64,000 nt of DNA from Chthoniobacteraceae bacterium (GTDB lineage: Bacteria > Verrucomicrobiota > Verrucomicrobiia > Chthoniobacterales > Chthoniobacteraceae): contig JAQGOL010000029.1 in assembly GCA_028293625.1 (NCBI GenBank), forward strand, positions 62,001 to 126,000, in the 5' to 3' direction. Made by a program: the position numbers and the translations under genes. The notes beneath the pieces are model-generated. The model worked only from the letters and a program-made list of their open reading frames with translations, ran no database searches and was not told the DNA's origin. Below are positions 7,560 to 23,688 of this stretch, piece by piece. The first letter of the stretch is position 1. Every line of letters begins with the position of its first letter.

Positions 7560-10500
7560 ATGATCTCCCGTCTCATCGCCATCATCACAGCTGCCGACGC
7601 GGCCACCCGCAACCGGTCGCTTGAGGAAATCTGCACGGCGGCATCTTTTGAAGAGTTGCTGGCCGAATGTGATGCGCTCGAAGAATTCCGCCATCGCAGT
7701 GAGAATCTGTATGAACGCGTCCGTGCGATTTTTTTCCTCCATGCGATCCACCGTTTCCATTTGCCTGCCCGCGCGCAGCTGAGTCTGAACGGATTGGTGC
7801 CATTCGAGGGGCATGAGCATTTGCTGCAGAGGCGTTTTGAGGAAGCCATCGAGCTTTTCCTTTCCACCCAGCGCGCGGCTGGTCCAAGTGATGCGCTGAG
7901 CAGTGCGCTGGCCGCGGCTTATTACCGGCTCGCATTTCAAACCCTGGCCAATCAGGTCCGGCGCAGCGTGCGTTCGGTGCGCGGCAACCAATGGATGTTC
8001 CGCATGGGGCATCCCAAGGATCAGCCATTGCGGATCCGGCGTGAACTCCTTGCCGCCCATCCCATTGACGGCTCGTATCCGGTGCTTCGGGAAAAGACGC
8101 CGGTCCGCATGGATCTAACGCACTCGGGCTGGAGCGACATTTTCTTTTTGGGAATGGATTATCCCGAAGGCGCCCGGGTGCTTAACGTTTCAATCGACCT
8201 TGCCGTTCATGGCCGGGATGCGGCGCCTCAACCGCCGGTATCCGCCTGGTTGCGAGTGATTGAAGAGCCTGTGCTGCGGCTTGTCAGCGTCGATCTCGGT
8301 GCGCGTGCGGACATTTCCAACCTGGCCGAAGTGTTCGACTTCGCAAAAGATTACCTGGGGCTGCTCAAGGCGGCGGTCATCGCCTCGGGGCTTGTGCCGC
8401 CCGGCATCGAAGGCTCGGGCAAATCGTTGGGCGATCTGCTTGAACAAATGCTTGGACCAGGCCGCGGCCTTGAGCTGGTCAGTTCCGTGAACGATATCCC
8501 AAAAGGATCGCGCCTGGCTGTTTCCACGAATCTTCTCGCCGCGTTGATCAGCGTCCTGATGCGGGCGACCGGCCAGGCCGAATCGTTGACGGGATCGTTG
8601 CGGGAAGAAGAACGGCGCCTTGTCCTTGCACGGGCACTTTTGGGGGAATGGCTTGGGGGATCGGGTGGCGGCTGGCAGGATTCGGGCGGGGTCTGGCCGG
8701 GCATTAAATTGATTGAAGGAGTGGCTGCGCAACCCGGCGACGTGGAGGTCAGCCGCGGACGTCTGATGCCGGCGCATCATGTGTTTACGCGCTCGGAAAT
8801 TTCGGAGGACTCGCGCCGCAAACTTCAGGATTCCCTCGTGCTCGTCCACGGCGGCATGGCGCAAAACGTCGGGCCGATCCTGGAGATGGTGACCGAAAAG
8901 TATCTGCTGCGCTGCAAGGCCGAATGGGAAGGACGCCAGGAAGCGCTCGGGATTCTGGACCGGATTCTCGATGCCCTTCGCGACGGCGACATTCCCAAGG
9001 TCGGCGCCGTGACGACGCGCAACTTCGAAGGGCCCATCCAGACCATCATTCCCTGGGCATCCACTTATTATACCGAACAGCTCATTGAAAAGGTGCGCGC
9101 TGAATTCGGCACCGACTTCTGGGGATTCTGGATGCTGGGCGGCATGTCGGGCGGCGGCATGGGTTTTATTTTCGCCCCGGATCGCAAGGCCGAGGCGCAG
9201 CAACGCCTTCAAGCAATCATGAGCGCCACCAAACGGGAGTTGCAACACGCGCTTCCTTTCGCGATGGAGCCGGTCGTCTACGACTTTGCCATCAACGAAA
9301 ACGGCACATTTGCCGATTTGCTTGAAGGCGCCGAATCGCTGATGCCGCCCGCCTATTACACCCTGACCGTGCCCGATTTGTTGCGCCAGGAGTTGCGCAC
9401 CCTTTCCCCGTTGCGCCGGGCGGAACTTGATAAATTCGGAGCCGCCTGCCGCACAAAACCCGAGTTGCGGGGAATGGTGCAGACGCTCTTTGATGTCATG
9501 CTGCCGAAAGGAAAAGCGGAGTCGGGCGATCAGCAGACCTTGGGCGCGCTTTTGGAGTCCCACGGATTTGATCCAAAACTCCATGACCAGATCCGGGGGC
9601 AATTAAGAGAAGGCCGAATCGGGCTGGCGCAAAACCGGCTTCCGGCAAACGCGGTGATTGAAGATGTCCGCCCCGAGGATGTGGTTCATCACGCTTATCC
9701 AGCCGACTCGGGTCCATACAGCGACATTGGCCTGGCGGCACTTCGTGATGGTGAGGTGGCGGTCATTTCGCTCGCGGCCGGAGCCGGTTCGCGCTGGACC
9801 CAAGGGGCTGGGGTGGTCAAGGCGCTTCATCCCTTCTCCAAGCTGAGCGGACGCCACCGCACTTTCATCGAGACGCATCTGGCTAAAAGCCGGCGCATTT
9901 CGCGCATGGCGGGAACCGCGGTGCCGCATATTTTCACCACCAGTTACCTGACCCACGAGCCAACCGCCGAGTTTCTCGCCCGGCAGAAGAACTATGGATA
10001 TGAAGGGCCTCTGATTCTTTCGCCCGGTAAATCGGTTGGATTACGGATGGTGCCGACCGAGCGCGATCTGCGGTTTGCGTGGGAGGAAATCTCGCAGCAA
10101 TTGCTCGATGAACAGCAACAAAAAGTCCGGGAAAGTCTTCGAGCTGCGCTGATCAACTGGGCGCGTTCGGCCGGGGAAGCGAGTGATTACACAGACAATC
10201 TGCCGCTCCAGTGCCTCCACCCGGTTGGACACTGGTATGAAGTGGCAAATCTCTTCCGCAACGGCGTGCTGGCGAACCTGCTTGCCGAGCGGCCGCAGAC
10301 CCGCTGGTTGCTGTTGCATAATATCGACACGCTTGGCGCGAATCTCGATCCGTCCCTTCTAGGCCGGCACATTCAAAGCGGCGCGGGCCTGACTTTTGAA
10401 ATGATTGGCCGCAGGTTGGAAGATCGCGGCGGCGGCCTGGCCCGGGTCAATGGCCAGGTCCGGCTCGTGGAAGGACTCGCGATGCCCAATGAACATGCCG

Positions 10501-10883
10501 AGTTTGACCTGAGCTATTACAACACATTGACGACCTGGATCGATCTGGATGCGTTGTTTGCCGCTTTCGCACTGACCCGCGCTGATCTGGGTGACTCAGA
10601 AAAAGTCGCCACCGCCATCCGCGCGCTGGCCGCCAAGATGCCAACCTATATCACGCTCAAAGAAGTGAAAAAGCGGTGGGGCCATGGCCAGGAAGATATC
10701 TTTCCCGTCACCCAATTTGAAAAGCTATGGGGCGACATGTCGGCTCTGAGCGAAATTGATTCGCGTTTTGTGGTGGTTCCTCGATTGCGCGGGCAACAGT
10801 TAAAAGATCAGGCGCAGCTCGACGGCTGGCTGCGCGATGGATCGGCCGCGTATGTCGAGTCGCTCTGCGAATGGGGCGGTTGA
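7560..10883 (+). CDS. Fusion protein: FKP-type GHMP sugar kinase plus UDPGP-family pyrophosphorylase
   Basis: In this 1107-residue cytoplasmic protein, residues 1-170 are a helical region I do not recognise. About 180-590 matches the kinase half of L-fucokinase/[16 protein letters not shown] (181-193), [11 protein letters not shown], a degenerate phosphate loop [12 protein letters not shown] (313-324, normally GSGLGTSS), [15 protein letters not shown] (370-384) and [10 protein letters not shown] (527-536, normally GAGGGG). About 730-1060 resembles eukaryotic-type UDP-sugar pyrophosphorylases: [14 protein letters not shown], then [14 protein letters not shown] and [13 protein letters not shown] (918-930), equivalent to the UGP PPGHGD and NIDNLGA blocks. 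A kinase and a pyrophosphorylase in one chain would turn a free sugar into an NDP-sugar. The degenerate phosphate loop leaves kinase activity uncertain. It directly follows the GalU-like gene. Confidence 0.75.
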
Positions 10884-10930: not shown

Positions 10931-12649
10931 TCACTTCTCGCCCTGAGGTTTTCGATCCATCGCCTTCGCTTTTTCAAGGTTCTGTCGCGCCAGGGTATCC
11001 GTTGGATCGAGCTTCAGCGCTATCTCCAGATGCTTGATCGCAGCCTCGCTGTCGCCGGCCGTGATCAGCAGCCAGCCGAGGTTATTCTGCAATTGTGCGT
11101 TTTCAGGATCCAGTTCCACCGCTTGTTTGGTCGCTTCCAACGCCTTTGGTAAATCGTTTTGGCGCAGGAACATTTCGGCAAGAGTCGTGTATGCACGCGG
11201 GATTTTCGGGTTGTCCGAGATCGCTTGCTTTAAGTGTTGCCGCGCTTCAACCACACGTCCGGACATGAGGAGGGCAACCGCCAGTTCAGTGCGGACTTCG
11301 GCATCACTGGGATCGGCTTTAAGCAACGCCTTATTAAGCGCGATCTTATCAGCCAGCGCCCAGGTTTGGAAATAATCCTTGGATAACAGATCGAAGTCAG
11401 CCGGGTTGCGCGGCAATAACTGGAGCCATAGCTCACCCATCTCATCCGAACTCTGGAGTCCATAAATGACACGCTTGGGCACTGGATTTGGATTTCGCAC
11501 ATTGCCGGCTGAGTTGTCGTAAGTGTAGCGCATCCGCAATGTGCTCCCTTTTGGAAGAACCAGGGGAGTCGCGTAACGGTAGTCGCCTTGCCAGTTGAAA
11601 TCCCATTGCCTGATGGAAATCAGCTCCTGCTTTGTGCCGTCGGGAAGTTCGGCCCAGCCATGCACTTCCTTGCCAAGGTAATGAAGGTGCGGAAGGAGGC
11701 CCAGTAACTCAACTTCAACCGGCAGTTTATAGGACGATTCGATCGCGTAATCGGTCGTTCCTGCCGGGATGTCGATCTCAACGGAACGAAGCAATAGCCG
11801 GAACGCCTTTCGCGTCGGGGGTTGATCAGTAAAATAAAGCGCGACGCTGGCCTGGATTTTTTCCGGTTTGCCAGTCGGGCGCATGTGAAGTTGCAAAACA
11901 ATGTCCGTGCTCTTTCGAAGCACCTCCGTCAGGCCGGCGGGCGCTTCCAAAGTCCGTTTGCCTGGCTGCCAGCTAAAAAACATCCCATCCGGCGTCCTCG
12001 CGCCCTGGCCCGCGTTCATCCCTGGGAATCCCGGCTCGTCCTGGCGGGCCGCACGCCGGCGGGCCTCTCCGGTATCGTCAAACAGGATGAATGCATGATG
12101 GACGGCACCTCTTACGTTGGGTCGAAACTCGACCGCGCGTAAGTATCGATTTCCCGGGACAACCTGGGGGATCACGAAGTTGCGATAGACGTCCTTGCCG
12201 CCAGCGGGGAGGGTATACGGCTCAGGCATGGCGAGCAGCAGATCCGGCTCGCCTAGCTGCCAGTCATCGCTCCACTGCGGCTTTACCTTTAACTCCGAAG
12301 CGATGCCTTCCGGGGCACCTCCTTTGCGCCAATTTTCGATCAGATCAATTTGCGCGGCGGTGAGGCGGCGTTCGCCAACAAACGCGCCATGGCCGGCTTC
12401 CGGCGGCCAGGGCGGCATATAACGACTCGCCGTCACATGAGCCAGCAGCTTCGCCCGCTTTTTCACCTCCTCATACGTTGCGAGGCTAAACGGAGCGTCT
12501 CCTCCCGGATGATGGCATACCACACATTCCTCGAAAATGATCGGCGCGATATCACGGTTGAATGTCGGCGATTTCCCCGGCGGCGGGCTTTTTGCATGGA
12601 CGGCAATTTCGAAGAACATCCATGCAACCAAAGCAAGCCGCCAACTCAT
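10931..12649 (-). CDS. Cytochrome c / PHM-like copper monooxygenase / TPR fusion, secreted
   Basis: In this 572-residue exported protein, a signal peptide (1-19) is followed by a single c-haem motif CVVCHH (42-47) in a cytochrome-like domain. Residues 150-415 carry both copper sites of peptidylglycine alpha-hydroxylating monooxygenase: HH 184-185 and H255 (CuH type), then HLH 321-323 and Met404 in SSDEMGELW (CuM type; PHM has HTH and SSDEM). Residues 430-560 contain three TPR units (for example LDPENAQLQNNLGWLLITAG). PHM-type enzymes use O2 and two coppers to hydroxylate a C-H bond; the substrate here is unknown. ATG 12649 was chosen because it overlaps the upstream redoxin stop (ATGA) and has GAGGAA just before it; a start seven codons earlier lies inside the redoxin gene. 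Confidence 0.8.
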   Translation of the reverse strand: MSWRLALVAWMFFEIAVHAKSPPPGKSPTFNRDIAPIIFEECVVCHHPGGDAPFSLATYEEVKKRAKLLAHVTASRYMPPWPPEAGHGAFVGERRLTAAQIDLIENWRKGGAPEGIASELKVKPQWSDDWQLGEPDLLLAMPEPYTLPAGGKDVYRNFVIPQVVPGNRYLRAVEFRPNVRGAVHHAFILFDDTGEARRRAARQDEPGFPGMNAGQGARTPDGMFFSWQPGKRTLEAPAGLTEVLRKSTDIVLQLHMRPTGKPEKIQASVALYFTDQPPTRKAFRLLLRSVEIDIPAGTTDYAIESSYKLPVEVELLGLLPHLHYLGKEVHGWAELPDGTKQELISIRQWDFNWQGDYRYATPLVLPKGSTLRMRYTYDNSAGNVRNPNPVPKRVIYGLQSSDEMGELWLQLLPRNPADFDLLSKDYFQTWALADKIALNKALLKADPSDAEVRTELAVALLMSGRVVEARQHLKQAISDNPKIPRAYTTLAEMFLRQNDLPKALEATKQAVELDPENAQLQNNLGWLLITAGDSEAAIKHLEIALKLDPTDTLARQNLEKAKAMDRKPQGEK

Positions 12650-13293
12650 TTCACTTCCTCGATAAAACATCCGAGTGCGGGCTCTGAAGCGGGTGTCACC
12701 GGTTGTCCCGCGAGCGCCTGCTTTAACGCTGTTTGAAGATCGTATACTGTTGGTTCCGGCCTCGCTTTTCCAAAATCGACATACCGATTATCGAGGCGTC
12801 CGTGATAGAGCAGTTTGCCGTTTGGCCTGAAAACCGCCGCTTCCGGCGTCACACAAACGCGCGATTTCTTTGAGAAGATATGTTGAGGATCGCAAAACGC
12901 CTCCAATGGATAATTGAATCTGTTGAGATGCTCGCGGATTGCGGCGGCCGATTCGTCGGCGCCGGGATAGACAAGGTAAAAAACAACGCCAAGCGGCGCG
13001 AATTTCTCGGACAAACTCCGGATCTCCGGGGCGTAGGTATTGGAAATAGGGCAATCTGTCCGGGTGAAAACAAAAGCCAGCAATTTCGCGGTCGAATCAC
13101 GGAAGGGGTCTGCCGGCTGCCCGTTTAGATCGAGCAGGATCGGCACTTTTAACGGAGGCCGCTTTTGGCCGGCCTCGCCCTGAAAGGAGGTCAGCAGCAA
13201 AGCGCAAACAACGCCGAGTAAAGACGATATCCGCGGATGGTTCTTCTGGAGGCGGTAAGAGAAAGGCAAGGGGTCGGAAATGTTAAATTGCAA
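12646..13293 (-). CDS. Exported redoxin-domain (AhpC/TSA-like) protein
   Basis: The 215-residue thioredoxin-fold protein has an N-terminal hydrophobic segment (SSLLGVVCALLLTSF) that should export it. The core has FTRTDCPISNTYAPEI, where a single active Cys is followed by PIS instead of the CxxC of disulfide reductases. A second Cys (EAFCDPQHIFSKKSRVCV) might resolve it. No ATG is available at the 5' end: TTG 13293 and TTG 13269 are both possible, so the start is uncertain. The stop overlaps the copper monooxygenase start (ATGA), so the two proteins are translationally coupled and probably act together, for example in thiol, peroxide or copper redox chemistry. That role is inference. Confidence 0.75.
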   Translation of the reverse strand: MQFNISDPLPFSYRLQKNHPRISSLLGVVCALLLTSFQGEAGQKRPPLKVPILLDLNGQPADPFRDSTAKLLAFVFTRTDCPISNTYAPEIRSLSEKFAPLGVVFYLVYPGADESAAAIREHLNRFNYPLEAFCDPQHIFSKKSRVCVTPEAAVFRPNGKLLYHGRLDNRYVDFGKARPEPTVYDLQTALKQALAGQPVTPASEPALGCFIEEVK

Positions 13294-13487: not shown

Positions 13488-13523
13488 AAAAAAGCCCGCC
13501 GCATGGGATCCCATGCGGCGGGC
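13488..13523 (-). terminator. Rho-independent terminator of the porin gene
   Basis: A perfect 30-nt palindrome (13494-13523, arms built on GCCCGCCGCATGGG) lies 30 bases past the porin stop. It is followed, on the reverse strand, by six T residues (A tract 13488-13493 on the plus strand). This is a strong intrinsic terminator. Confidence 0.9.
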
Positions 13524-13553
13524 CTGATATAACCTAACCGTGATCGGTGCGCG

Positions 13554-15026
13554 CTAGAAGTTGATGGTTGCCTGGAGGTAACCAAAGTCGGCGTCGTCGG
13601 ACGGACCGGTATCGGCAAGATAGCTGCCGGCGAAGAAATGGCTGTAGCCCGCTTGAACCTGGAGCCATTTTGTCGCATTCCAGGTGACGACGAAATCGAC
13701 TTCCTGTCCGGCGAAGTTGCTTGCATTGCGAGCCGCTGGGGTAAGCGGACGGACCGGGGTAAGGCCATTGGCGCGGTACCAAAAGTCGTCGGTGCTGGCC
13801 AGCCAAAATGCATGGTAGTCGAGCTGGGCGGTCACCGATTTTACCGGAGAAACGCGCAGGCTGATCATCGGGTTGTGCATGTTCTGCCACGAAAACAGAT
13901 CCATAATTCCATAGAACTTGTGGTTGGTCGGAAAGAGGTTCTGGAAAGTCTCGCTATCGTTGTCCGCGGGATCCTTGTCTCCGGTGGCGAAGTTGTATTC
14001 GGCCCACAGCCGCGGTTTCCAGGCCGAATCAAAGTTGTAACCCGCGCCGGCATGAACGGCAAACGCGCTAAGTGCCTGATCAAACACCTCGCCGTTTTGA
14101 TAAGCGCCTTCAACTTCGAACTCGAACCCGTGAAGCTTCTTCGGATTTCCTTTAACCCGGCCGCCATAAGTGCCGAAACTGGAGTGCTGGGCAAGGAGAC
14201 CGGCTCCTTTGGGCTGGATAGTCGGGACGGCGCCTTGAAGGCTCGCCGTGGTGCCGTTGGCCTGGCTAAGCCAGAGGGCGTAAAGCTCGAGCGATCCAAA
14301 GGCCAGATCGCCCATCGTAAAGTAAGCGCCGCTGAAGATCTGCTCGCGATCGTTTTCGTTCCCATTAAACAAGTCAGACTTGTTGAACTCATCGCGTCTG
14401 ATCACCACAACGGAAGAGGCAAAAAGGTCGAGTTGCCAGGTAGGCGCTTTCCAGGAAAGTTTCGCGGCATCAAAGGTGCGTCCGAAGTTATTCCAGTCAA
14501 AGCCGCCAATGAGCCGTTCATCTCCATAGCTCAGAAGCTGGCGGCCGGCTTTCAATGTGAGCGGAAACGATTTCGGATTGCCAATTTCAATGTAAGCCTG
14601 GCGTAAATCGAAGTTATCGTCACCTTCCGCGGCCAGCGCGCCCGGGATGTTCGGGCGATCGGACTCAAACTCACGGGAGTCCTGGCCTTGGGCGTAAATC
14701 CTAAGCCACGGAGTCGCTTTGACCAGGACGCCTACGCGGAACCGCTGAAGCAGCCATGTGTCATCGGTAAACGAGTTGAGGCTGTCGTCAAAATCGAAGT
14801 TGTTATTGCGCACTTCAATCCGCAGGCGTTCCTGCACATCGAAGCAGATTCTGCCGTCCAGGAAACAGAGCGGGTTCGCTTCGGGCGCTTTTTCAATGAT
14901 GGCTTTTGTTTCTTTGCCATCGGCGGGTTTAACAATGTCGCCGGCCACTCCGGCTAGCGCGCTGCCTGCAAGGAGCGCGGCAGCCAGGGTATTTCGATGA
15001 GGAACAGGGTGGTATTTTGGAAGCAT
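13554..15026 (-). CDS. Outer-membrane porin, alginate-export (AlgE) family
   Basis: The 490-residue barrel has an N-terminal signal peptide (NTLAAALLAGSALAGVAG), then the family hallmarks: ICFDVQERLRIEVRNNNFDF, a WLRIYAQGQDSREF strand, and AGRQLLSYGDERLIGGFDWN with its conserved RQ...GDxRL block. The C-terminus is YLQATINF, a BAM-type final strand ending in Phe. The family (PF13372) includes AlgE but also many porins of other or unknown substrate. It lies downstream of the nitrate-type ABC genes on the same strand with a 158-base gap and ends in a strong terminator, so it could be the last gene of that transcript and serve as its outer-membrane entry route. That link is inference. Confidence 0.8.
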   Translation of the reverse strand: MLPKYHPVPHRNTLAAALLAGSALAGVAGDIVKPADGKETKAIIEKAPEANPLCFLDGRICFDVQERLRIEVRNNNFDFDDSLNSFTDDTWLLQRFRVGVLVKATPWLRIYAQGQDSREFESDRPNIPGALAAEGDDNFDLRQAYIEIGNPKSFPLTLKAGRQLLSYGDERLIGGFDWNNFGRTFDAAKLSWKAPTWQLDLFASSVVVIRRDEFNKSDLFNGNENDREQIFSGAYFTMGDLAFGSLELYALWLSQANGTTASLQGAVPTIQPKGAGLLAQHSSFGTYGGRVKGNPKKLHGFEFEVEGAYQNGEVFDQALSAFAVHAGAGYNFDSAWKPRLWAEYNFATGDKDPADNDSETFQNLFPTNHKFYGIMDLFSWQNMHNPMISLRVSPVKSVTAQLDYHAFWLASTDDFWYRANGLTPVRPLTPAARNASNFAGQEVDFVVTWNATKWLQVQAGYSHFFAGSYLADTGPSDDADFGYLQATINF

Positions 15027-15184
15027 GGGTGGTTGTTGGTTGGAAATAGCCCCGGAATAATTTGCCTGGTGCCGATTGACAGGCAGCCCAATCAGGGCGC
15101 GGAGTAGCGCGGCGCTGAGTGGACAGCGTCGGAGAGCAAGTGATCCTGCCGTTAGGTTTAAACCGGGAAAACGGCGCCTCTCGA

Positions 15185-16042
15185 TCAGACCGAAATCGAG
15201 GCACTCTTTGGAGCGGGCGGCGGCGCGGGTGCAACCGGCGCGCTTACTTGCTGAACCGGCTTTTTCTTGTGGGCGTGGATCTCAAGAAACTCGATAAGAT
15301 GTTCCCGGAGCCGGTAGTAGTCCGGATGTTCCATGACAGCCTGGCGTTCGCGAGGGCGGGGGAAGTTGATTTCGAGAATATCGCCTACTTCAGCCTCCGG
15401 ACCGTCAGTCATCATGACGATGCGATCGGATAAAAAGAGAGCTTCATCGACATCATGAGTAACCATAACGGCGGTCTTTTTGTCCCTGCGCCAGAGTTCA
15501 ATCAGGACTTGCTGAAGTTCGAACCGGGTCAGTGAATCGAGCATCCCAAAAGGTTCATCGAGCAACAACATCTTGGGCGAGAGTGCAAAGGCGCGCGCGA
15601 TGCCAACCCGCTGGCGCATTCCGCCGGAAAGTTCAGCTGGCCTTTTATGCATGGAGTCACCAAGCCCGACGATTGTCAGGTAATACTCGGCGATTTGTTC
15701 CCGCTCCTGGCGTGATGCCGTGTAGAAGACCTGGTTGATTCCCAGCATGACGTTTTCAAACGCAGTCATCCATGGCAACAGGCAGGGCGATTGAAAGACC
15801 ACTCCACGGTCGGGGCCGGGGCCGGTGATTTCCTTGCCTGCCAGGACAATGACTCCTTCGGTGACTTCACTAAGGCCAGCGATCATGGAAAGCACGGTCG
15901 ATTTGCCACAGCCCGAATGTCCAATCAGGCAGATGAATTCGCCCTGGCTTACTTTGAGGTTGAAGTCCTTTACAATAATGGCGGGCCCCTTGGGCGTGGA
16001 ATAGCTTTTACTAAGCTTGGAAAGTTCGAGATAATGGCTCAT
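15185..16042 (-). CDS. Nitrate/nitrite-type ABC transporter ATPase (NrtD-like)
   Basis: The 285-residue ABC ATPase energises uptake with the permease encoded upstream. Visible motifs are Walker [11 protein letters not shown]-loop region [11 protein letters not shown], signature LSGGMRQR, Walker [13 protein letters not shown] and switch His in [12 protein letters not shown]. The element [11 protein letters not shown] and the extra C-terminal section are typical of the nitrate/sulfonate/taurine group. The tail after about residue 260 is Pro/Ala-rich ([12 protein letters not shown]) and probably disordered. A second ATPase gene ends 24 bases upstream, so the transporter probably uses a heterodimer of ATPases, as in cyanobacterial NrtCD, but here without the extra substrate-binding domain of NrtC. 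Confidence 0.88.
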
Positions 16043-16066
16043 CGGGAATGCGGATATTGAAGGCGC

Positions 16067-16981
16067 TTAGCCCAGTTCAATCGTTTCGCGTTTTTCTTCG
16101 GCGCGACGTTTCGGAGCGCGCCTTGCGAACATCGGAGGCCGGGCGACGTTCAGGTCTTCGGGAATGAGATCCGGGAGGACAAGCTTGCGTGAAATAACCA
16201 GCTTCGGTTTGCCGCCCTCGCCAAGAAGGTAACCAATGACTTTGCGCCTGATCTCTTTGTAGCGAGGATCGTGATTGATCGCTTTGCGATCGCGCGGACG
16301 CGGAATGTCGACGGCAACTGAGGGCCCCAGTGTCGCGCCGGGGCCCGCGCTCAGCGGGATGATGCGATCGGCCAAAAGAATGCCTTCATCCACATCGTTG
16401 GTAATGAGAACGACCGTCCGTTTTTCCTGCTCCCATATCCGCACAATCTCATCCTGAAGCGTGGCGCGTGTAAGTGCGTCGAGCGCGCCGAGCGGCTCAT
16501 CCAGAAGAAGGATCTGCGGTTCGGCGGCCAGCGCCCGCGCCACTGATACCCGCTGCCGCATGCCTCCGCTTAGTTCACCCGGCTTCTTGTCGCGTGCCGG
16601 CGTGAGGTTGACCATCGCTATATATTTCTCGGTGTGCGCCCGCTTCTTCTCTTTCACCCAGTTCGGGAATATCTGGTCTACGGCGAGATAGATGTTTTCA
16701 AAGACCGTAAGCCACGGCAGCAGTGAATAGTTCTGAAATACCACGCCCCGGTCCGGTCCTGGCTCAGTAATTGGCACGTCTTTCAGTTTGACCGTGCCGC
16801 TGTCAGCCTGGAGGAGCCCGGCAATCAACGAAATCAGTGTCGTTTTGCCCGCACCGGAATAACCGACAATGGCGACAAACTCGCCTTGGGCGATTTCAAG
16901 ATTGATGTCGCGGAGCACATTGGTGCGTTTGTCACGGGGGCCGAAGCCTTTGTTGACGTTCTTTAATTGCAGGAATGGCAT
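16067..16981 (-). CDS. Second nitrate/nitrite-type ABC transporter ATPase (NrtC/NrtD-like)
   Basis: This 304-residue ATPase is paralogous to its downstream neighbour. Motifs are GYSGAGKTT (Walker A; Ala and Gly replace the usual GC), [26 protein letters not shown] and LLLDEPLGALD. The switch region reads LITNDVDEGILLADR: the conserved H-loop histidine is Asn here, so this subunit may be the catalytically weaker member of a heterodimer whose partner keeps His. The last 50 residues are basic (FARRAPKRRAEEKRE). ATG 16981 was taken because it begins 4 bases after the permease stop; an in-frame start ten codons upstream would overlap the permease. Confidence 0.87.
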   Translation of the reverse strand: MPFLQLKNVNKGFGPRDKRTNVLRDINLEIAQGEFVAIVGYSGAGKTTLISLIAGLLQADSGTVKLKDVPITEPGPDRGVVFQNYSLLPWLTVFENIYLAVDQIFPNWVKEKKRAHTEKYIAMVNLTPARDKKPGELSGGMRQRVSVARALAAEPQILLLDEPLGALDALTRATLQDEIVRIWEQEKRTVVLITNDVDEGILLADRIIPLSAGPGATLGPSVAVDIPRPRDRKAINHDPRYKEIRRKVIGYLLGEGGKPKLVISRKLVLPDLIPEDLNVARPPMFARRAPKRRAEEKRETIELG

Positions 16982-16985
16982 GGGA

Positions 16986-17879
16986 TCAGATCGTTTTGAA
17001 GCGGGCTTCAACCATGCTCATGAGCCGGTCCAGCGCGTAACCGATGATGCCGATTGTCAGGATGCAAAGGATGATGTGGGCGTAACTCAGCGCGTTGTAT
17101 TGCTGCCAGAGAAAGCCTCCGATGCCGGGCCGGCCCGTGAGCATCTCGGCGGCGACAATGACTAGCCACGCTATGCCGAGCGAGAGTCTGAAGCCGGTGA
17201 ACATGTAGGGGAGCGTGGCGGGCACCAATACTTTAAAGAGTGTCTTGGAACGCGAGAGCTTAAGCACCCGGGCCACGTTAATGTAATCCTGTGGAATGGC
17301 ACGGACCCCGACCGCGGTATTCAAAACCGTGGGCCACATCGAGCAGATCGCGATGGTAAAGATGGCGGCCAGTTCCGAGGCCGTATAGGTGACGTTTTCT
17401 GCAAACGGGATGTGAACGGTAAACTTGGCGCTCAGAAAAAGCACCATGCCAAGAGGGAGCCATGCCAGCGGCGACACGGGCCGCAGGATCTGGATGATCG
17501 GGTCGAAGATTTTGGTAAACGTCTTGGAAAGACCAAGGCAGAACCCGATCGGCGTGCCTAACAGGAGCGCGATGAAGTAACCCTGCGCCACGAGCTTCAG
17601 AGAAAGCCAGGTAAAACGCAGCATCCCCTGGTCGAGTTCGCCCCGTTTTTCAAATGGCTTGATTACATACGGCTTGCTGGCGGCCCATGTCTCAGCGGGC
17701 GTGGGGAGATCTTCCGAGAGCCCGACGCGCTTGGTCACCGTGACCATGTCGCCAAAGTCATCTTTGACCGTGCTGCTGATTTCCCTGCCCGAGATGCAAT
17801 ACCAGATGAGGACGCAGAGTCCGATGCCGATCAGCGGGAAGACAAAGGTGTCGATGCGGAAACGTTTAATCCAGTCCAT
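16986..17879 (-). CDS. Nitrate/nitrite-type ABC transporter permease (NrtB-like)
   Basis: This 297-residue inner-membrane protein is of the binding-protein-dependent permease family (BPD_transp_1). It has one N-terminal helix (FPLIGIGLCVLIWYCIS), a periplasmic stretch of about 60 residues, then five or so helices including KLVAQGYFIALLLGTPIGF and AAIFTIAICSMWPTVLNTA. The cytoplasmic coupling loop contains VARVLKLSRSKTLFKVLVPATLPYMF, cut here into its recognisable EAA-like pattern (ARVL...G-like turn...LPATLP). The gene lies between the binding-protein gene and the two ATPase genes with 4-6 base gaps, the normal order for an nrtABCD-like operon. Confidence 0.87.
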   Translation of the reverse strand: MDWIKRFRIDTFVFPLIGIGLCVLIWYCISGREISSTVKDDFGDMVTVTKRVGLSEDLPTPAETWAASKPYVIKPFEKRGELDQGMLRFTWLSLKLVAQGYFIALLLGTPIGFCLGLSKTFTKIFDPIIQILRPVSPLAWLPLGMVLFLSAKFTVHIPFAENVTYTASELAAIFTIAICSMWPTVLNTAVGVRAIPQDYINVARVLKLSRSKTLFKVLVPATLPYMFTGFRLSLGIAWLVIVAAEMLTGRPGIGGFLWQQYNALSYAHIILCILTIGIIGYALDRLMSMVEARFKTI

Positions 17880-17884
17880 ATCAG

Positions 17885-19189
17885 TTAACCTTTCAATGTG
17901 TTGACTTCGAAGCTCTTCGCGTAGGCTTCACAGTCGGCTTTGGGATCGAATATTTTGCCGTCAAAAAAAGTTTCCGGTTTATCATCCAGGCCGCCGTGTT
18001 TGAATCCGATCTCTTTCATCGCTTCCTCGTAGATGTCGGCGCGCAGGACTTGTTTGGCGACCTTCTCGTATTCGGGTGCGCCCTCGACAAAACCCCAGCG
18101 GCGAAACTGCGTCAGCCACCATTTGCCGAACTTGGGCTGCGGATAGTTGGTGCCGCGATCGCTGAAGATCATGTAGTTGGGATCCTTGATCTTGCGGCCA
18201 TCGCCCATGTCGTACTTTCCTTGCAACCGAGGAAGCAGGATGTCGGGCGGACAGTTGATATAGGTCGGGGCGCTGACGATTTTGGCTTGCTCGGCGCGAT
18301 TCTCCATCTTGTCGAGCCAGAGGCTCGCTTCATGCAGCGCTTTAAGGACTGCCTTCACGGACTTGGGATTTTGTTCAGCGAACTCAGCTGTAAAAGCGCA
18401 CACTTTCTCGGGATGATCTTTCCAGATGTTCTGTGTATTGATCGCCGTGTATCCGCTGCCATCGGCGATGGCGCGCGCATTCCACGGTTCGCCCACACAG
18501 AAGCCATCCATCTTGCCGACCTTCATATTCGCCACCATTTGCGGAGGGGGAATGGTAATCAGCGAAATATCCGCATTGCCGCCTTGCGCATCACCCGGGT
18601 TGATTCCGCCGGCGGCGAGATAATAGCGCATCCACATTGCGTGGGTGCCTGTGGGGAAAGTCATCGCGAAGGTCATTGGCGTGCCGGCGGCCTTGGCGGC
18701 ATCGGCATAGGCTTTTAGCGCCTTGGGATCTTCCTTCACTTTGCCTGCAAGCTCCTTCTTCAAGGTAATTGCCTGGCCGTTGCGATTAAGTATCCACGGC
18801 GCAATCATCGGTTTTTTAGGTGAACCAGCCAGACCCATACTCGATGCGAGCGGCATGCCTAACAACATGTGCGTGGCCTGGTTGTCGCCGGTGGAAAGGG
18901 AGTCACGGATCGCCGCCCAGTTGGCGCCTTTGGCAACCGTGGAATCGATGCCGTATTTTTTAAACAACCCTTTTTCGTGGGCGATGATGATCGGCGAACA
19001 ATCGGTCAGCGCGATGATGCCGAATTTCATGGTGGCCGTCTCCGGCGCGTCGCTCGCATAGAGACTGCCAACCCAGCCTTGCGGCAATCCGCCAAGCAGC
19101 CCGGTGGCGCCGAGCGCCTTGACGGTGTTGGAGAGAAAACGCCGGCGGTTCAGGCAGGAAGCCGGTGCGGAATCAAAAGGGTTATTCAT
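17885..19189 (-). CDS. Nitrate-type ABC transporter substrate-binding protein (NrtA-like), Tat-exported
   Basis: The 434-residue binding protein has a twin-arginine signal (NRRRFLSNTVKALGATGLLGG). The mature part follows the NrtA/CmpA pattern: FGIIALTDCSPIIIAHEKGLF at the start, HMLLGMPLASS, AMTFPTGTHAMWMRYYLA and MKVGKMDGFCVGEPW. In cyanobacterial NrtA/CmpA these blocks line the nitrate or bicarbonate pocket, so nitrate or nitrite is most likely, with bicarbonate the alternative. It is the first gene of the transporter operon; about 70 bases upstream there is a sigma-54-like element. No nitrate or nitrite reductase is in the window. Confidence 0.85.
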   Translation of the reverse strand: MNNPFDSAPASCLNRRRFLSNTVKALGATGLLGGLPQGWVGSLYASDAPETATMKFGIIALTDCSPIIIAHEKGLFKKYGIDSTVAKGANWAAIRDSLSTGDNQATHMLLGMPLASSMGLAGSPKKPMIAPWILNRNGQAITLKKELAGKVKEDPKALKAYADAAKAAGTPMTFAMTFPTGTHAMWMRYYLAAGGINPGDAQGGNADISLITIPPPQMVANMKVGKMDGFCVGEPWNARAIADGSGYTAINTQNIWKDHPEKVCAFTAEFAEQNPKSVKAVLKALHEASLWLDKMENRAEQAKIVSAPTYINCPPDILLPRLQGKYDMGDGRKIKDPNYMIFSDRGTNYPQPKFGKWWLTQFRRWGFVEGAPEYEKVAKQVLRADIYEEAMKEIGFKHGGLDDKPETFFDGKIFDPKADCEAYAKSFEVNTLKG

Positions 19190-19689
19190 AAAAGTGGCGG
19201 CTGATGTGGAGAGCGTGCGCGCAGGAGTGGCGACAAATGGGTTGCGGGAGCGGCTTTAGCTACCGATGTGCCATGCCTGCCGGAAGTGGCGCATAAACGA
19301 ACTCCGAGTTTTTGATGCGGACGATGAATCTAATTCATGCATGCCTCCTCTACCTAGCAGCAGACAACTCCGCGCTCTCTGAATGAATCCGCGGGAAACG
19401 TTATTCACGCGCGGCACTCATGAATTAAAATCCGTGCCAGTTAGCTTTCAGTGGCTTCAAGCAAGGTTCGCCGCTGTCGGCTTTTAGGCAGGCTGCGCAA
19501 AAGCAATGGCTCCAATGGCGTCCGCAAGTTGCTTCCTATGCAGCCCGGACGGATGAGGATGCCGCGCCAAGCGGGGCGCTTAGGGAAAAGATTAGTGCCA
19601 CGAATGCCAGCCGGGCACTTCGTTCTTCCTTTGCTTTGCTATCAATCCGTCGTTGTAACGGAGTCACGATTTTCTATGCTCCGCCGCCT
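19190..19689. other. 500-base divergent intergenic region with TGAAT/ATTCA half-site cluster
   Basis: This gap separates the nitrate-type operon from the autotransporter gene. No convincing coding sequence is seen; an 88-codon frame inside it has no recognisable features. Between 19324 and 19425 there are six copies of the 5-mer TGAAT or its complement (19325-19329, 19333-19337, 19380-19384, 19384-19388, 19403-19407, 19421-19425), two of which form a dyad ATGAAT-cta-ATTCAT (19324-19338). Random expectation for 100 bases is about 0.2. The cluster lies 50-150 bases upstream of the sigma-54-like element, where an activator would bind. Confidence 0.45.
19257..19273 (-). promoter_or_regulatory. 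Candidate sigma-54 promoter of the nitrate-type transporter operon
   Basis: On the reverse strand the sequence reads TGGCAC-N5-TAGC, with the invariant GG and GC exactly 10 bases apart; the consensus is TGGCAC-N5-TTGC. It would start transcription about 57 bases before the binding-protein ATG. Sigma-54 control of nitrate uptake is well known in other bacteria. The one-base mismatch in the -12 box and the lack of a known activator gene nearby keep this tentative. Confidence 0.35.
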
Positions 19690-22600
19690 ATGCGAGAAAA
19701 GAGAGGGGTGTGGTTAAATCAAATGATTCTGGCGGTGGCAGTTACGTTGAATGCTTCTGATGAATTGCGCGCAGCCACATGGTTGACTCAGCCGGCTTCC
19801 GGAGAATGGGCAACGGCCACGAATTGGTCTTCCGGCAATGTGCCGGATACCGCAGGTGAGGTTGCGGAGTTTGGCGAATCTTCCATTCATGCAATTTCGC
19901 TCTCTTCGTTCGCAGGAATCAGCCGGCTTACTTTTAATGACTCAGCCACGCCATACGAGATAACCGTCTCCGGAGGCGGCGTTTTGCAGCTGCTTGAAGC
20001 GGGCATCCTATCGAAGGCTACCAGCGGGATTACGGTAACCGGTCAGGCAAGCGCCCTGAGCTTTTTCGGGAATGCCGGCGCTTCGCACACCCGGCTTGCG
20101 GCCGGCCAAAATGGACAAATTGTCTTCCTGGAATCCGCGCATGCAGAAGATGCTCAGATCGCAGTCGGGGCCACGGGATTTGTTGGTTTTCACAACCAAT
20201 CAAGCGCCGGTAACGCCCATCTGCAGGTAGACGGTTTGGCCCAGTTTATCGGCGAGGCGAGTGGCGGGGCGATGACGGCGGCGGTAACCGGTGAGATGAC
20301 GTTTTTTAATGATTCCAGCGCCGCGAAAGCAACGCTGGTGATTGCTTCCGGAGGACGTCTTGGATTTGTGGATCGCAGTTCGGCAAGCGAAGCGGCGATC
20401 GTGAACAGCGGTGTGATCTTCTTTATGGGCGCGGCCTCGGGTGGGACTGCGGAACTAACGGGAACGCCGGGATCCCGTTTGGATATCCGGAGCCTGGAGA
20501 CTGCCGGGATAACGCTCGGTGCGCTTAACGGAAGCGGCGAGGTGGATCTTGGTGATAAAACGCTCTCAGTCGGTGCTGGCGGAGCGGACAGCGTGTTTTC
20601 CGGCCGGATCACAGGAGTTGGCGGAAGTCTGGTGAAATTGGGTGCCGGCACCGTTGCACTGCTTGGTGCAAATGATTTTTCCGGGAGTGCGACGCTCGAA
20701 TCCGGAGTGCTGGCAATCGGGGCGGCGCAAGCTTCAGGACTCGGTCCGCTGGTGCTCCGGGGCGGCGAATTACGCGGGATAAACTCAGTTGAAGTAGCGA
20801 ATCCAGCCCTGGTTCTTGGAGCGGACGCGACCACTGTTATTTCCTCGGTTTCCGGGCAACTCACCTTGCTTCCACTCACGCTCACGCGAGAGGCGGGCAA
20901 CCATTTGATTTTTAAATCGGGCTCCGGGTCGATTGAATTGCGGGCAGCTTCCGCCATCTCACTTGGTGTAGCTGGCCCGATCACCGTGCTTAGCGGTTCT
21001 GTTTCAGCAGGATCAGACGCCTTGGGTGAATTGACCGCTGCGGCATCGGTGACCACGGTAAACAGAGAAGCGGCCATCGACTTTCAACATGGCCTGGCTT
21101 CGATTAAAAATCTGGAGGGAGGAGGCCGTGTTCATTCCTTCAAAGACCTGACTGTCGAGGAAGGCACTTTCTCCGGAGAACTTTTCACCTCCAACATTTT
21201 CGTCAAGGAAGGGGAAGGAACATTCACCCTCAATGGCCGCGCCAAACTCGTTGCCGCTAACGCCGAGGTGCGTGGTGGAACGCTCAATTTGGAAACCAGC
21301 GTTGCGGACGGTGTTCCCCAAATCACGGTGCGATCCGGTGCGGCAATCCGCGTTGGCAGCGAGGGGATTTCTCCCGTGAAGCTGAGCATCGAAGCGGGCG
21401 GCGATGGGCTTTTTGAAAATGGCGGATCGCTTGGCTTTCATTCGATTGATAATGCCGGCTCGCTTGTTTTTCGGGATGGAGGGAACGGCGACGGCACGAT
21501 CTTAACCCGCTCCGGAGCCACGACGCGTTTTGAAGGCACCGCATATCCCAGGACTTCCAATTTGCGCAGCGAACCTGGCGGGCTTGTCGCAATTGATGGC
21601 CTGGAAAGTGCAACCTTTACCGTCAATGCGATCGATGCCGCCGGGAGATTCTTTTTGGGTGACAGGACGCTTGCCGTGGCTGCCGGGACGATTTCGGGCG
21701 CACTCTCGGGAAAAGGCGGTGCGCTCACCAAAATCGGCGTCGGAATGGTGACTTTAAGCGGCAAAAATTCGTTTGATGGGGGCACAACCATTGAAGCGGG
21801 AATCCTGGCCATCCACAGCGATGCAAACCTTGGTGCGGCAGGCGAGCCCCTCTGGATGTCGGGCGGCGTGTTAAAGACCTTGGAATCTGTTGATCTGGCG
21901 CGTCCGGTCGTGATCACAGGCGCTTCGACGCTCGATACAGGCAGCAGGACATTGCGAATCACCGGCAGGCTTTCAGGCATCAGCCCCGCTGTCATCCCCC
22001 CCGGCGGGATCATCCTCCCTGCCACCAAAGCAAATGTACTTTTACGCAAGATCGGTTCCGGTCTTCTCACGCTGAGCGCTGACAACCCATTTGCCGGCAC
22101 GTTGCAGGTGGAGGAAGGGGGAGTGGAACTCGCCGGTTCCATTGCGGGAAATCTTACACTGCTTGCCGGCCGGCTCACAGGCCACGGAATCGTCGGCGGC
22201 AATTTGCGCAATAATGGCATGATCAGCCCCGGGAATTCTCCCGGAACACTGACCGTTCATGGCGATTATACGCAGACCTCGGAGGGCCGTCTCCGGCTTG
22301 AACTCGATGGCGCCGAACAATCCGACCAGTTGGCAATCGGTGGCCGCGCACATCTCAATGGAACGCTGGAAATCGTTGCGGGCTCTCGTTTGAAGCCGGG
22401 ATCGCAACTTGCCGTAATTACGGCGGCTGGCGGAATTGATGGACGCTTCAGCCGTGTGATTCAATCAAGCTTGCTTGGTGGCGAAATTGTTTACGCCAGG
22501 AACGAAGTGATTTTCAAATATCTGACGAGCGCTTTTGGCCGGCTTGAATCGCTCTCAGATCTGCATCTGAGCCATAACCAACGCGAAATCGCCGCTGCCC

Positions 22601-23688
22601 TCGATCGTGCTTCCGACGCCCAGCCTGGCCTCGTGCAATCGTTGCAGGCGTATCCATTTGCCGCGCTGCCCAAAGCTTTTGATCAAATTGCGCCGGAAGA
22701 GTTTGGCGCACTCTTTGAGATTGGCTTAAACAGCGCCAACATTCAGGCGGCCAATCTGGATCGCCATCTTAGTGAAGTCCGGGCCGGGGCGGCCGGCTTT
22801 AGTGCCAGCGGGTTAAATCTTCAGGATGCAGACGGCACTCATTCCAATGCCCCCGATGGAAAAGAGGCGTCCGGACCGGGTGAGTGCTGGACTGTTTTCC
22901 TCAACGGGACCGGCGAATGGCTCGATATTAACGGTGATGGAAATGCCCGCGGCTTTAATCTGGAGACGGGCGGCTTTACCCTGGGCGCGGATTACCGGGT
23001 CACAAGCAATTTTGCATTGGGCGTGCTCGCCGGTTATGTGGGAACCTCCGTGGATCTCGCAGACGCGGGACGGGTCCGGGTTGACGGGGGAAAGCTTGGC
23101 CTTTATGCGACGATCTTCGGCCCCAAAGCTTATCTGAACGGGTTGATAAGCGGCGGCGCCAATTCTTACGATCTTCGCCGGGGCGGACTGGGAGGCCACG
23201 CCCATGGCGATACCGAGGGCGGCGAGTTCCATGCCTTGCTTAGCGGTGGATACGATTGCCACGCCGACCCCTGGGAGTTTGGTCCGACTGCGGCCATACA
23301 ATACGGTTACGAAAGCATTGATGGCTTTCAGGAACGCGGTTCACTGGCACCCCTCGCTCTTTTCGAAAACAAGACATCCTCGTTGCGCAGTCAGCTTGGT
23401 GGGCGGCTGGGAGTTAATATTCGCCGGTTTGGAATTCGGCCCGAGATTCGAGCTCTCTGGCAGCATGAATACCTTGAGGCGTCCCGCTCCATTGAAGCGG
23501 GTTTTCCAACGGGCGGCGGCTTTCAGGTTGAAGGGCCGCGCACGGGCCGCGACAGCATTCTTCTTGGCGGCAGTGTGAACTTCATTTGGAGCCCAACTCT
23601 GGGAACCTTTGCCGCCTATGATGCGGAACTTGGCAGGAGAAATTATCGTTCGCAGACGATTAGTGCCGGATTGCGTTGGAGTTTTTGA
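19690..23688 (+). CDS. Large autotransporter with beta-strand repeats
   Basis: The 1332-residue type V secretion protein starts with a signal peptide, a basic n-region (REKRG) and then MILAVAVTLNASDELRA. The passenger (about 30-1020) begins WLTQPASGEWATATNW, typical of autotransporter-associated beta-strand proteins. Repeats include LVKLGAGTVALLGANDFSGS, LTKIGVGMVTLSGKNSFDGG and LLRKIGSGLLTLSADNPFAG, which predict a right-handed beta-helix. The C-terminal 260 residues are a PF03797-like barrel (FTLGADYRVTSNFALGVLAG, SSLRSQLGGRLGVN) ending ISAGLRWSF. No protease or lipase motif is visible in the passenger, suggesting an adhesin or surface-layer role. ATG 19690 was chosen; ATG 19723 is an alternative, and the TTG further upstream is unlikely. 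Confidence 0.88.
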   Translation: MREKRGVWLNQMILAVAVTLNASDELRAATWLTQPASGEWATATNWSSGNVPDTAGEVAEFGESSIHAISLSSFAGISRLTFNDSATPYEITVSGGGVLQLLEAGILSKATSGITVTGQASALSFFGNAGASHTRLAAGQNGQIVFLESAHAEDAQIAVGATGFVGFHNQSSAGNAHLQVDGLAQFIGEASGGAMTAAVTGEMTFFNDSSAAKATLVIASGGRLGFVDRSSASEAAIVNSGVIFFMGAASGGTAELTGTPGSRLDIRSLETAGITLGALNGSGEVDLGDKTLSVGAGGADSVFSGRITGVGGSLVKLGAGTVALLGANDFSGSATLESGVLAIGAAQASGLGPLVLRGGELRGINSVEVANPALVLGADATTVISSVSGQLTLLPLTLTREAGNHLIFKSGSGSIELRAASAISLGVAGPITVLSGSVSAGSDALGELTAAASVTTVNREAAIDFQHGLASIKNLEGGGRVHSFKDLTVEEGTFSGELFTSNIFVKEGEGTFTLNGRAKLVAANAEVRGGTLNLETSVADGVPQITVRSGAAIRVGSEGISPVKLSIEAGGDGLFENGGSLGFHSIDNAGSLVFRDGGNGDGTILTRSGATTRFEGTAYPRTSNLRSEPGGLVAIDGLESATFTVNAIDAAGRFFLGDRTLAVAAGTISGALSGKGGALTKIGVGMVTLSGKNSFDGGTTIEAGILAIHSDANLGAAGEPLWMSGGVLKTLESVDLARPVVITGASTLDTGSRTLRITGRLSGISPAVIPPGGIILPATKANVLLRKIGSGLLTLSADNPFAGTLQVEEGGVELAGSIAGNLTLLAGRLTGHGIVGGNLRNNGMISPGNSPGTLTVHGDYTQTSEGRLRLELDGAEQSDQLAIGGRAHLNGTLEIVAGSRLKPGSQLAVITAAGGIDGRFSRVIQSSLLGGEIVYARNEVIFKYLTSAFGRLESLSDLHLSHNQREIAAALDRASDAQPGLVQSLQAYPFAALPKAFDQIAPEEFGALFEIGLNSANIQAANLDRHLSEVRAGAAGFSASGLNLQDADGTHSNAPDGKEASGPGECWTVFLNGTGEWLDINGDGNARGFNLETGGFTLGADYRVTSNFALGVLAGYVGTSVDLADAGRVRVDGGKLGLYATIFGPKAYLNGLISGGANSYDLRRGGLGGHAHGDTEGGEFHALLSGGYDCHADPWEFGPTAAIQYGYESIDGFQERGSLAPLALFENKTSSLRSQLGGRLGVNIRRFGIRPEIRALWQHEYLEASRSIEAGFPTGGGFQVEGPRTGRDSILLGGSVNFIWSPTLGTFAAYDAELGRRNYRSQTISAGLRWSF

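Follow-up and report, generated by a model that had tools for sequence, protein, structure and literature searches.

The window analysed here, a stretch of 64,000 nucleotides from a Chthoniobacteraceae bacterium, carries on its (-) strand a pair of overlapping genes (Table 1). The upstream gene encodes a redoxin, and the downstream gene encodes a protein in which a haem c domain, a PHM-like two-copper domain and TPR repeats follow one another. The redoxin ORF ends in ...GTGAAATGA, its TGA stop (12648-12646) running over the ATG at 12649, as the initial annotation had described. A mechanical ORF list sets the start of the monooxygenase gene at 12670, seven codons before 12649; we favour 12649 because relatives show the same stop/start overlap. 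Counted from this start, the residues named in the initial annotation are all correct: CVVCH at 42-46, HH at 184-185, H255, H321/H323, and M404 in the motif SSDEM.

A strong terminator-like hairpin closes the porin gene that lies upstream, so that the redoxin and monooxygenase genes look like a two-gene unit. A consensus search found no sigma-70 type promoter near the pair, no Rfam element was found there, and a plasmid search returned no match. The redoxin gene is preceded on the same strand (13554-19189) by a nitrate/taurine-type ABC transporter set, comprising an NMT1_2 binding protein, a permease and two ATPases, and then by the Alginate_exp porin; since the hairpin intervenes, we rejected transporter and porin as members of the unit. 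Convergent with the PHM gene is a (+) strand gene (7560-10883) whose 1107-aa product contains a UDPGP-like pyrophosphorylase part and weakly resembles the bifunctional fucokinase/fucose-1-phosphate guanylyltransferase. Positions 19636-23688 (+) encode a 1350-aa autotransporter with passenger-associated repeats.

Table 1. Features of the redoxin and monooxygenase gene pair, in window coordinates
Feature	Position	Strand	Basis or remark
Redoxin gene	12646..13293	(-)	215 aa as listed; signal peptide; putative TTG start
Haem c - PHM-like two-copper monooxygenase - TPR gene (predicted)	10931..12649	(-)	572 aa
Redoxin stop / monooxygenase start overlap, ATGA	12646..12649	(-)	Redoxin TGA = 12648-12646
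Probable signal peptide, residues 1-19	12593..12649	(-)	MSWRLALVAWMFFEIAVHA, hydrophobic leader; inference from sequence
Haem c domain, residues 24-121	12287..12580	(-)	Cytochrome_CBB3 in 27/33 members; C42, C45, H46, M78 invariant
CVVCH haem c attachment motif, residues 42-46	12512..12526	(-)	Sequence, alignment
M78 in MPPW, probable axial haem ligand	12416..12418	(-)	Invariant in both clades
PHM-like two-copper domain, residues 122-415	11405..12286	(-)	Rat PHM E 2e-7; Z 21.7 over 265 residues
H184-H185, CuH ligands (rat H107/H108)	12095..12100	(-)	Profile alignment, 112 relatives
H255, CuH ligand (rat H172)	11885..11887	(-)	Profile alignment, 112 relatives
H321-L-H323, CuM ligands (rat H242/H244)	11681..11689	(-)	Profile alignment, 112 relatives
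M404, CuM ligand (rat M314)	11438..11440	(-)	Profile alignment, 112 relatives
TPR repeats, residues 448-566	10952..11308	(-)	Pfam, predicted structure, structure matches
Redoxin C81 codon (TDCPIS)	13051..13053	(-)	Conserved cysteine
Redoxin C209 codon (LGCFI), C-terminal cysteine	12667..12669	(-)	Lost jointly with C81 in two sister proteins
Intrinsic-terminator-like hairpin, strong	13492..13525	(-)	15 pairs, 11 GC, then T run; 3' of porin gene

Domains of the predicted monooxygenase

Textbooks describe PHM and DBM as copper enzymes of animals and algae, PHM being the animal enzyme that finishes peptide hormones. The copper ligands of rat PHM are H107, H108, H172, H242 and H244, with M314 at the CuM site (PMC6123673). 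Searched alone against the PDB and Pfam, the window protein yields TPR matches only and its PHM domain stays hidden. From the PDB, a profile of residues 122-415 retrieves rat PHM and no other credible match; the alignment extends over both subdomains, and all copper ligands line up. The ligands are invariant in an alignment of 33 sequences. We then counted them in a relative set of 112 non-redundant PHM domains, drawn from all loci in Verrucomicrobiota and Planctomycetota: H184 and H255 are kept in 112/112, H185, H321 and H323 in 111/112, and M404 in 108/109. Two other residues of the PHM core are conserved as well, Q354 (rat Q272) in 111/112 and Y357 (rat Y275) in 109/112. Some signal for Pfam Cu2_monoox_C is present in 25 of 33 relatives (best 9.6e-6), and relatives in which the redoxin is fused to the same chain reach the cut-off of the Pfam PHM models Cu2_monooxygen / Cu2_monoox_C, below which the window protein remains; the component domains are thus already known, the family being visible in Pfam for these fused relatives.

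The AlphaFold model of the window protein (pLDDT 91.2, pTM 0.87) has PHM as its best structural match (rmsd 3.0, Foldseek E 2.8e-12), followed by dopamine beta-hydroxylase (Z 20.3). As modelled, the domain has the two-domain fold of PHM and DBM with all six copper ligands. The initial annotation had proposed a PHM-type two-copper domain and had named ligands that fail to converge in a predicted structure as the observation that would count against it; the predicted fold is that of PHM, and the profile match and ligand conservation point the same way. One long-branch member of the family (L077:946-2439) lacks H185, H321, M404 and Q354, and its copper domain is probably dead or repurposed.

The annotation was less apt in the nearness to peptidylglycine chemistry that it implied. 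In rat PHM, R240 engages the carboxylate group of the peptide, and N316 and Y318 contact the substrate. The position equivalent to R240 is L319 in the window protein and holds an arginine in a single relative, being replaced in 111/112. The equivalents of N316 and Y318 are E406 and W408; position 406 is N in 1/112 and position 408 is Y in 37/112. These three contact positions vary widely across the 112 relatives, while the copper ligands stay near-invariant. The conserved disulfides of PHM are also without counterpart: the PHM domain here contains no cysteine, nor does that of 61/112 relatives. Since the R240-type arginine is lost, peptidylglycine is an unlikely substrate, and the substrate is probably something other than a C-terminal glycine peptide held as in PHM. 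The chemistry may well be PHM-like, yet the label peptidylglycine hydroxylase seems unwarranted.

Ahead of the copper domain, C42, C45, H46 and M78 provide the CxxCH motif and probable axial methionine of a mono-haem class I type cytochrome c domain. Both elements (the methionine in MPPW/PPW) are kept without exception in the alignment of each clade of the family. The match to solved cytochromes is weak in a profile search (best E 0.02), and in fold comparisons PHM, TPR and redoxin matches took up the structure-search lists. The haem domain is present in 109/112 relatives, every time N-terminal to PHM, a constancy that supports the earlier suggestion that a haem in the same chain is a plausible electron donor. 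The host genome carries cytochrome c assembly genes, and no ALO-family (ascorbate-forming) enzyme was found in it.

The C-terminal TPRs, already noted in the initial annotation, were recovered by each approach that Table 1 lists for them. They occur in 42/112 relatives and in 1/46 of the fused proteins. The TPR region is a late addition to one branch, outside the core set, and it may dock a partner. Genes for FG-GAP / UnbV_ASPIC proteins recurrently adjoin TPR-type PHM genes (L018:5702-9442, L020:7805-8806, L036:5311-7719; also G247:C16 and G241:C612). Since genomes of this kind commonly hold them, at 11-47 matches per genome, the enrichment is modest, by a rough estimate. Three TPR-type PHM genes have a related protein directly upstream (L018:1839-3830, L044:3808-5799, L031:8-433), and Pfam identifies the copy in L018 as a multihaem cytochrome of c552/c554-like type.

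The redoxin and its linkage to the family

A scan of bacterial genomes yielded 32 loci, nearly all in Verrucomicrobiota. The domain occurs in 25/40 genomes of the same taxonomic family, in 10/195 of a phylum sample and in 58/149 of a Planctomycetota sample; ten genomes reached through the loci have 2 to 7 matches each, and the host genome has four further full-length PHM members. Identity within the family is only about 30-55%. A frame of 115 aa elsewhere in the host genome (locus L053, C28:12275-12376) holds a PHM fragment, 59% identical to the window protein over residues 171-202, that may be the remnant of a gene copy.

Redoxin, haem c and PHM lie in a single chain in 46 of the 105 relatives with enough flanking sequence. 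A same-strand redoxin neighbour accompanies another 25 (18 upstream, 7 downstream), one has a redoxin on the other strand, and 33 have none close by, 28 of these being of the TPR type. The redoxin is therefore not strictly required in cis. Fused or same-strand adjacent redoxins add up to 71/105 assessable relatives, a count whose members are not independent, the fused type being one clade and the sample being weighted toward relatives of the window protein. Wherever upstream-redoxin loci were examined, stop and start overlap (17/17: 13 ATGA, 3 GTGA, 1 TGATG). Strong redoxin relatives number only 7 in the 6.8 Mb of the host genome, and 4 of its 5 full PHM genes lie with one of them. One fused relative there (L004:1441-3549, contig C31) has an EF-hand ahead of the redoxin, haem c and PHM domains.

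A tree of 72 family members shows the evolutionary depth of this association. On it, the fused proteins make up one side of a single fully supported branch, and upstream and downstream redoxins are scattered over the other side, deep branches included. This scatter indicates an old linkage that the TPR branch lost or relocated, as opposed to a single gain near the window protein. The proposed redoxin link is real; the linkage, whose lack in relatives would have spoken against it, holds among them.

By sequence, the redoxin matches Pfam AhpC-TSA (E 3.7e-7) and has a thioredoxin fold. Two cysteines are each found in 69/71 relatives, C81 within DCPIS and C209 within a C-terminal GC. Two fused relatives lack both; they are sisters on the tree and count as one event, and this joint loss suggests that the two cysteines work as a pair. 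Its nearest solved relatives are 2cvb/2ywo, 2ywi and 3u5r; the redoxin of a fused relative matches them at Z about 22. The redoxin-haem c stretch of a fused relative is predicted with pTM 0.89, which hints at a fixed mutual arrangement of the two domains.

Three familiar redoxin classes were considered and set aside on motif grounds, which leaves reloading and protection of the copper site, both raised in the initial annotation, as candidate roles. A classical peroxiredoxin has PxxxT/SxxC; in the LAFVFTRTDC found here, the residue seven before C81 is not Pro and the one three before it is neither Thr nor Ser. The Sco copper chaperones have CxxxC plus a distal His, and the motif here is CPISN, with one Cys. 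The TlpA/ResA thiol-disulfide reductases have CxxC, and the redoxin has CPIS, its second conserved Cys being C-terminal.

Proposed electron supply and role of the redoxin

PHM needs two electrons, which ascorbate delivers one at a time to its two coppers (PMC6123673). The explanation we favour, to which we assign a probability of roughly 0.6, is that the gene pair encodes a periplasmic or exported dicopper C-H hydroxylase unit fed by haem c instead of ascorbate, with the redoxin as dedicated partner. The large protein, with its PHM/DBM fold, would use two coppers and O2 to hydroxylate C-H bonds. Electrons would arrive singly by way of the covalently bound haem c, move on to CuH and from there serve CuM, the presumed site where O2 and substrate react. 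In this way haem c would take over the role that ascorbate has in animal PHM and, to judge from the anatomy of the protein, would draw electrons from a respiratory or periplasmic pool. The redoxin would be the enzyme's dedicated thiol partner, most likely keeping it in working order, either by removing peroxide after uncoupled turnover or by reducing thiols during haem or copper loading. The TPR region, where present, would be a docking module added in one branch.

As the same set recurs in two bacterial phyla, the chemistry is probably a version of that of PHM which is independent of vitamin C. Most members have several paralogues per genome, which would point to several substrates. We advance more tentatively, and with some doubt, the generalisation that Verrucomicrobiota and Planctomycetota hold a bacterial PHM/DBM branch in which covalent haem c replaces ascorbate, a chain leads from thiol redoxin to haem c to two coppers, and the substrates are other than peptidylglycine.

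Other readings concern the haem, the redoxin and the copper domain. The haem c might be an electron exit, a sensor or a relay, the copper domain still acting as a monooxygenase whose coppers are fed by a small-molecule reductant. The multihaem cytochrome ORFs found directly upstream in L018 and L044 fit such a scheme, as the haem may talk to other carriers; however, haem and PHM domains are unseparated in 109/112 relatives and the host genome has no ALO-type ascorbate enzyme, though other reductants could serve, and we consider this arrangement improbable. Somewhat less improbable, but still rather unlikely, is a redoxin that serves maturation rather than catalysis, as a ResA/CcmG-like reductase keeping the CxxCH cysteines reduced for haem attachment. 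ResA is the nearest NCBIfam model in 35/44 fused relatives, although below cut-off, structure comparison also lists ResA and CcmG (Z 16-17), and the PHM domain offers no conserved cysteine as thiol target, 61/112 having no cysteine at all. Against it stand the absence of a CxxC, C81 and C209 being distant in sequence, the closer match to the 2cvb/2ywi/3u5r family, and a one-to-one fusion that would be unusual for a general maturation enzyme. A maturation role is in part compatible with the favoured hydroxylase unit.

The copper domain itself could have lost oxygenase activity and now be a copper-binding or copper-sensing scaffold, for which the wide variation at positions 319, 406 and 408 might be quoted. 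This we judge very unlikely: selection keeps the six ligands together with Q354, Y357, D378, N379 and E403 despite the low identity within the family, and the apparently dead L077 protein differs in precisely such positions. That the ligand pattern arose by chance in an unrelated beta-rich domain has practically no likelihood. The window protein alone does reach Cu2_monoox_C just at E 0.026, its 14.4 bits lying below the cut-off of 23, but chance is refuted by the profile match to rat PHM, the structural Z score and the relatives that exceed the Pfam cut-off.

Relation to known copper enzymes

A 2020 metalloproteome survey assigned PHM and DBM to eukaryotes only (PMC7435645), and PHM has been treated as widespread in eukaryotes in a discussion limited to its fold (PMC8812541). 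Our literature search, which included few subscription papers, turned up no description of haem c - PHM proteins. The closest known system is the PHM domain of PAM (rat 1opm, 1sdw), with which the window protein shares the double-domain fold, the six copper ligands and the equivalents of Q272 and Y275. It differs in being bacterial, in having an added haem c domain and a redoxin partner, in the missing disulfides and R240-type arginine of its family, and in the absence of a PAL lyase domain from the chain. Dopamine beta-hydroxylase (4zel) shares the copper fold and likewise places an additional N-terminal domain before the copper core; that domain is a DOMON in an enzyme that uses ascorbate, whereas here it is a covalent haem c. 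The redoxin resembles the 2cvb/2ywo, 2ywi and 3u5r family over the whole domain, including the C-terminal extension, and in the alignment with 2ywi the CP motif and the C-terminal GC are both shared; what sets it apart is its fusion to, or co-translation with, a protein of the haem c - PHM type. An analogous division of labour exists between cellobiose dehydrogenase, whose haem domain donates electrons, and LPMO, the secreted copper monooxygenase that receives them, although folds and copper centres are different, the haem is of type b, and donor and acceptor are separate proteins rather than one chain.

The family thus represents a large bacterial group with a full predicted copper site and a built-in candidate electron donor. 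The electron path of PHM has long been debated, and if haem feeds copper in these proteins, a haem within the chain itself would allow this path to be followed by optical means and with no ascorbate present. For the abundant soil and water bacteria that carry it, the family marks a set of undescribed putative O2-dependent hydroxylases.
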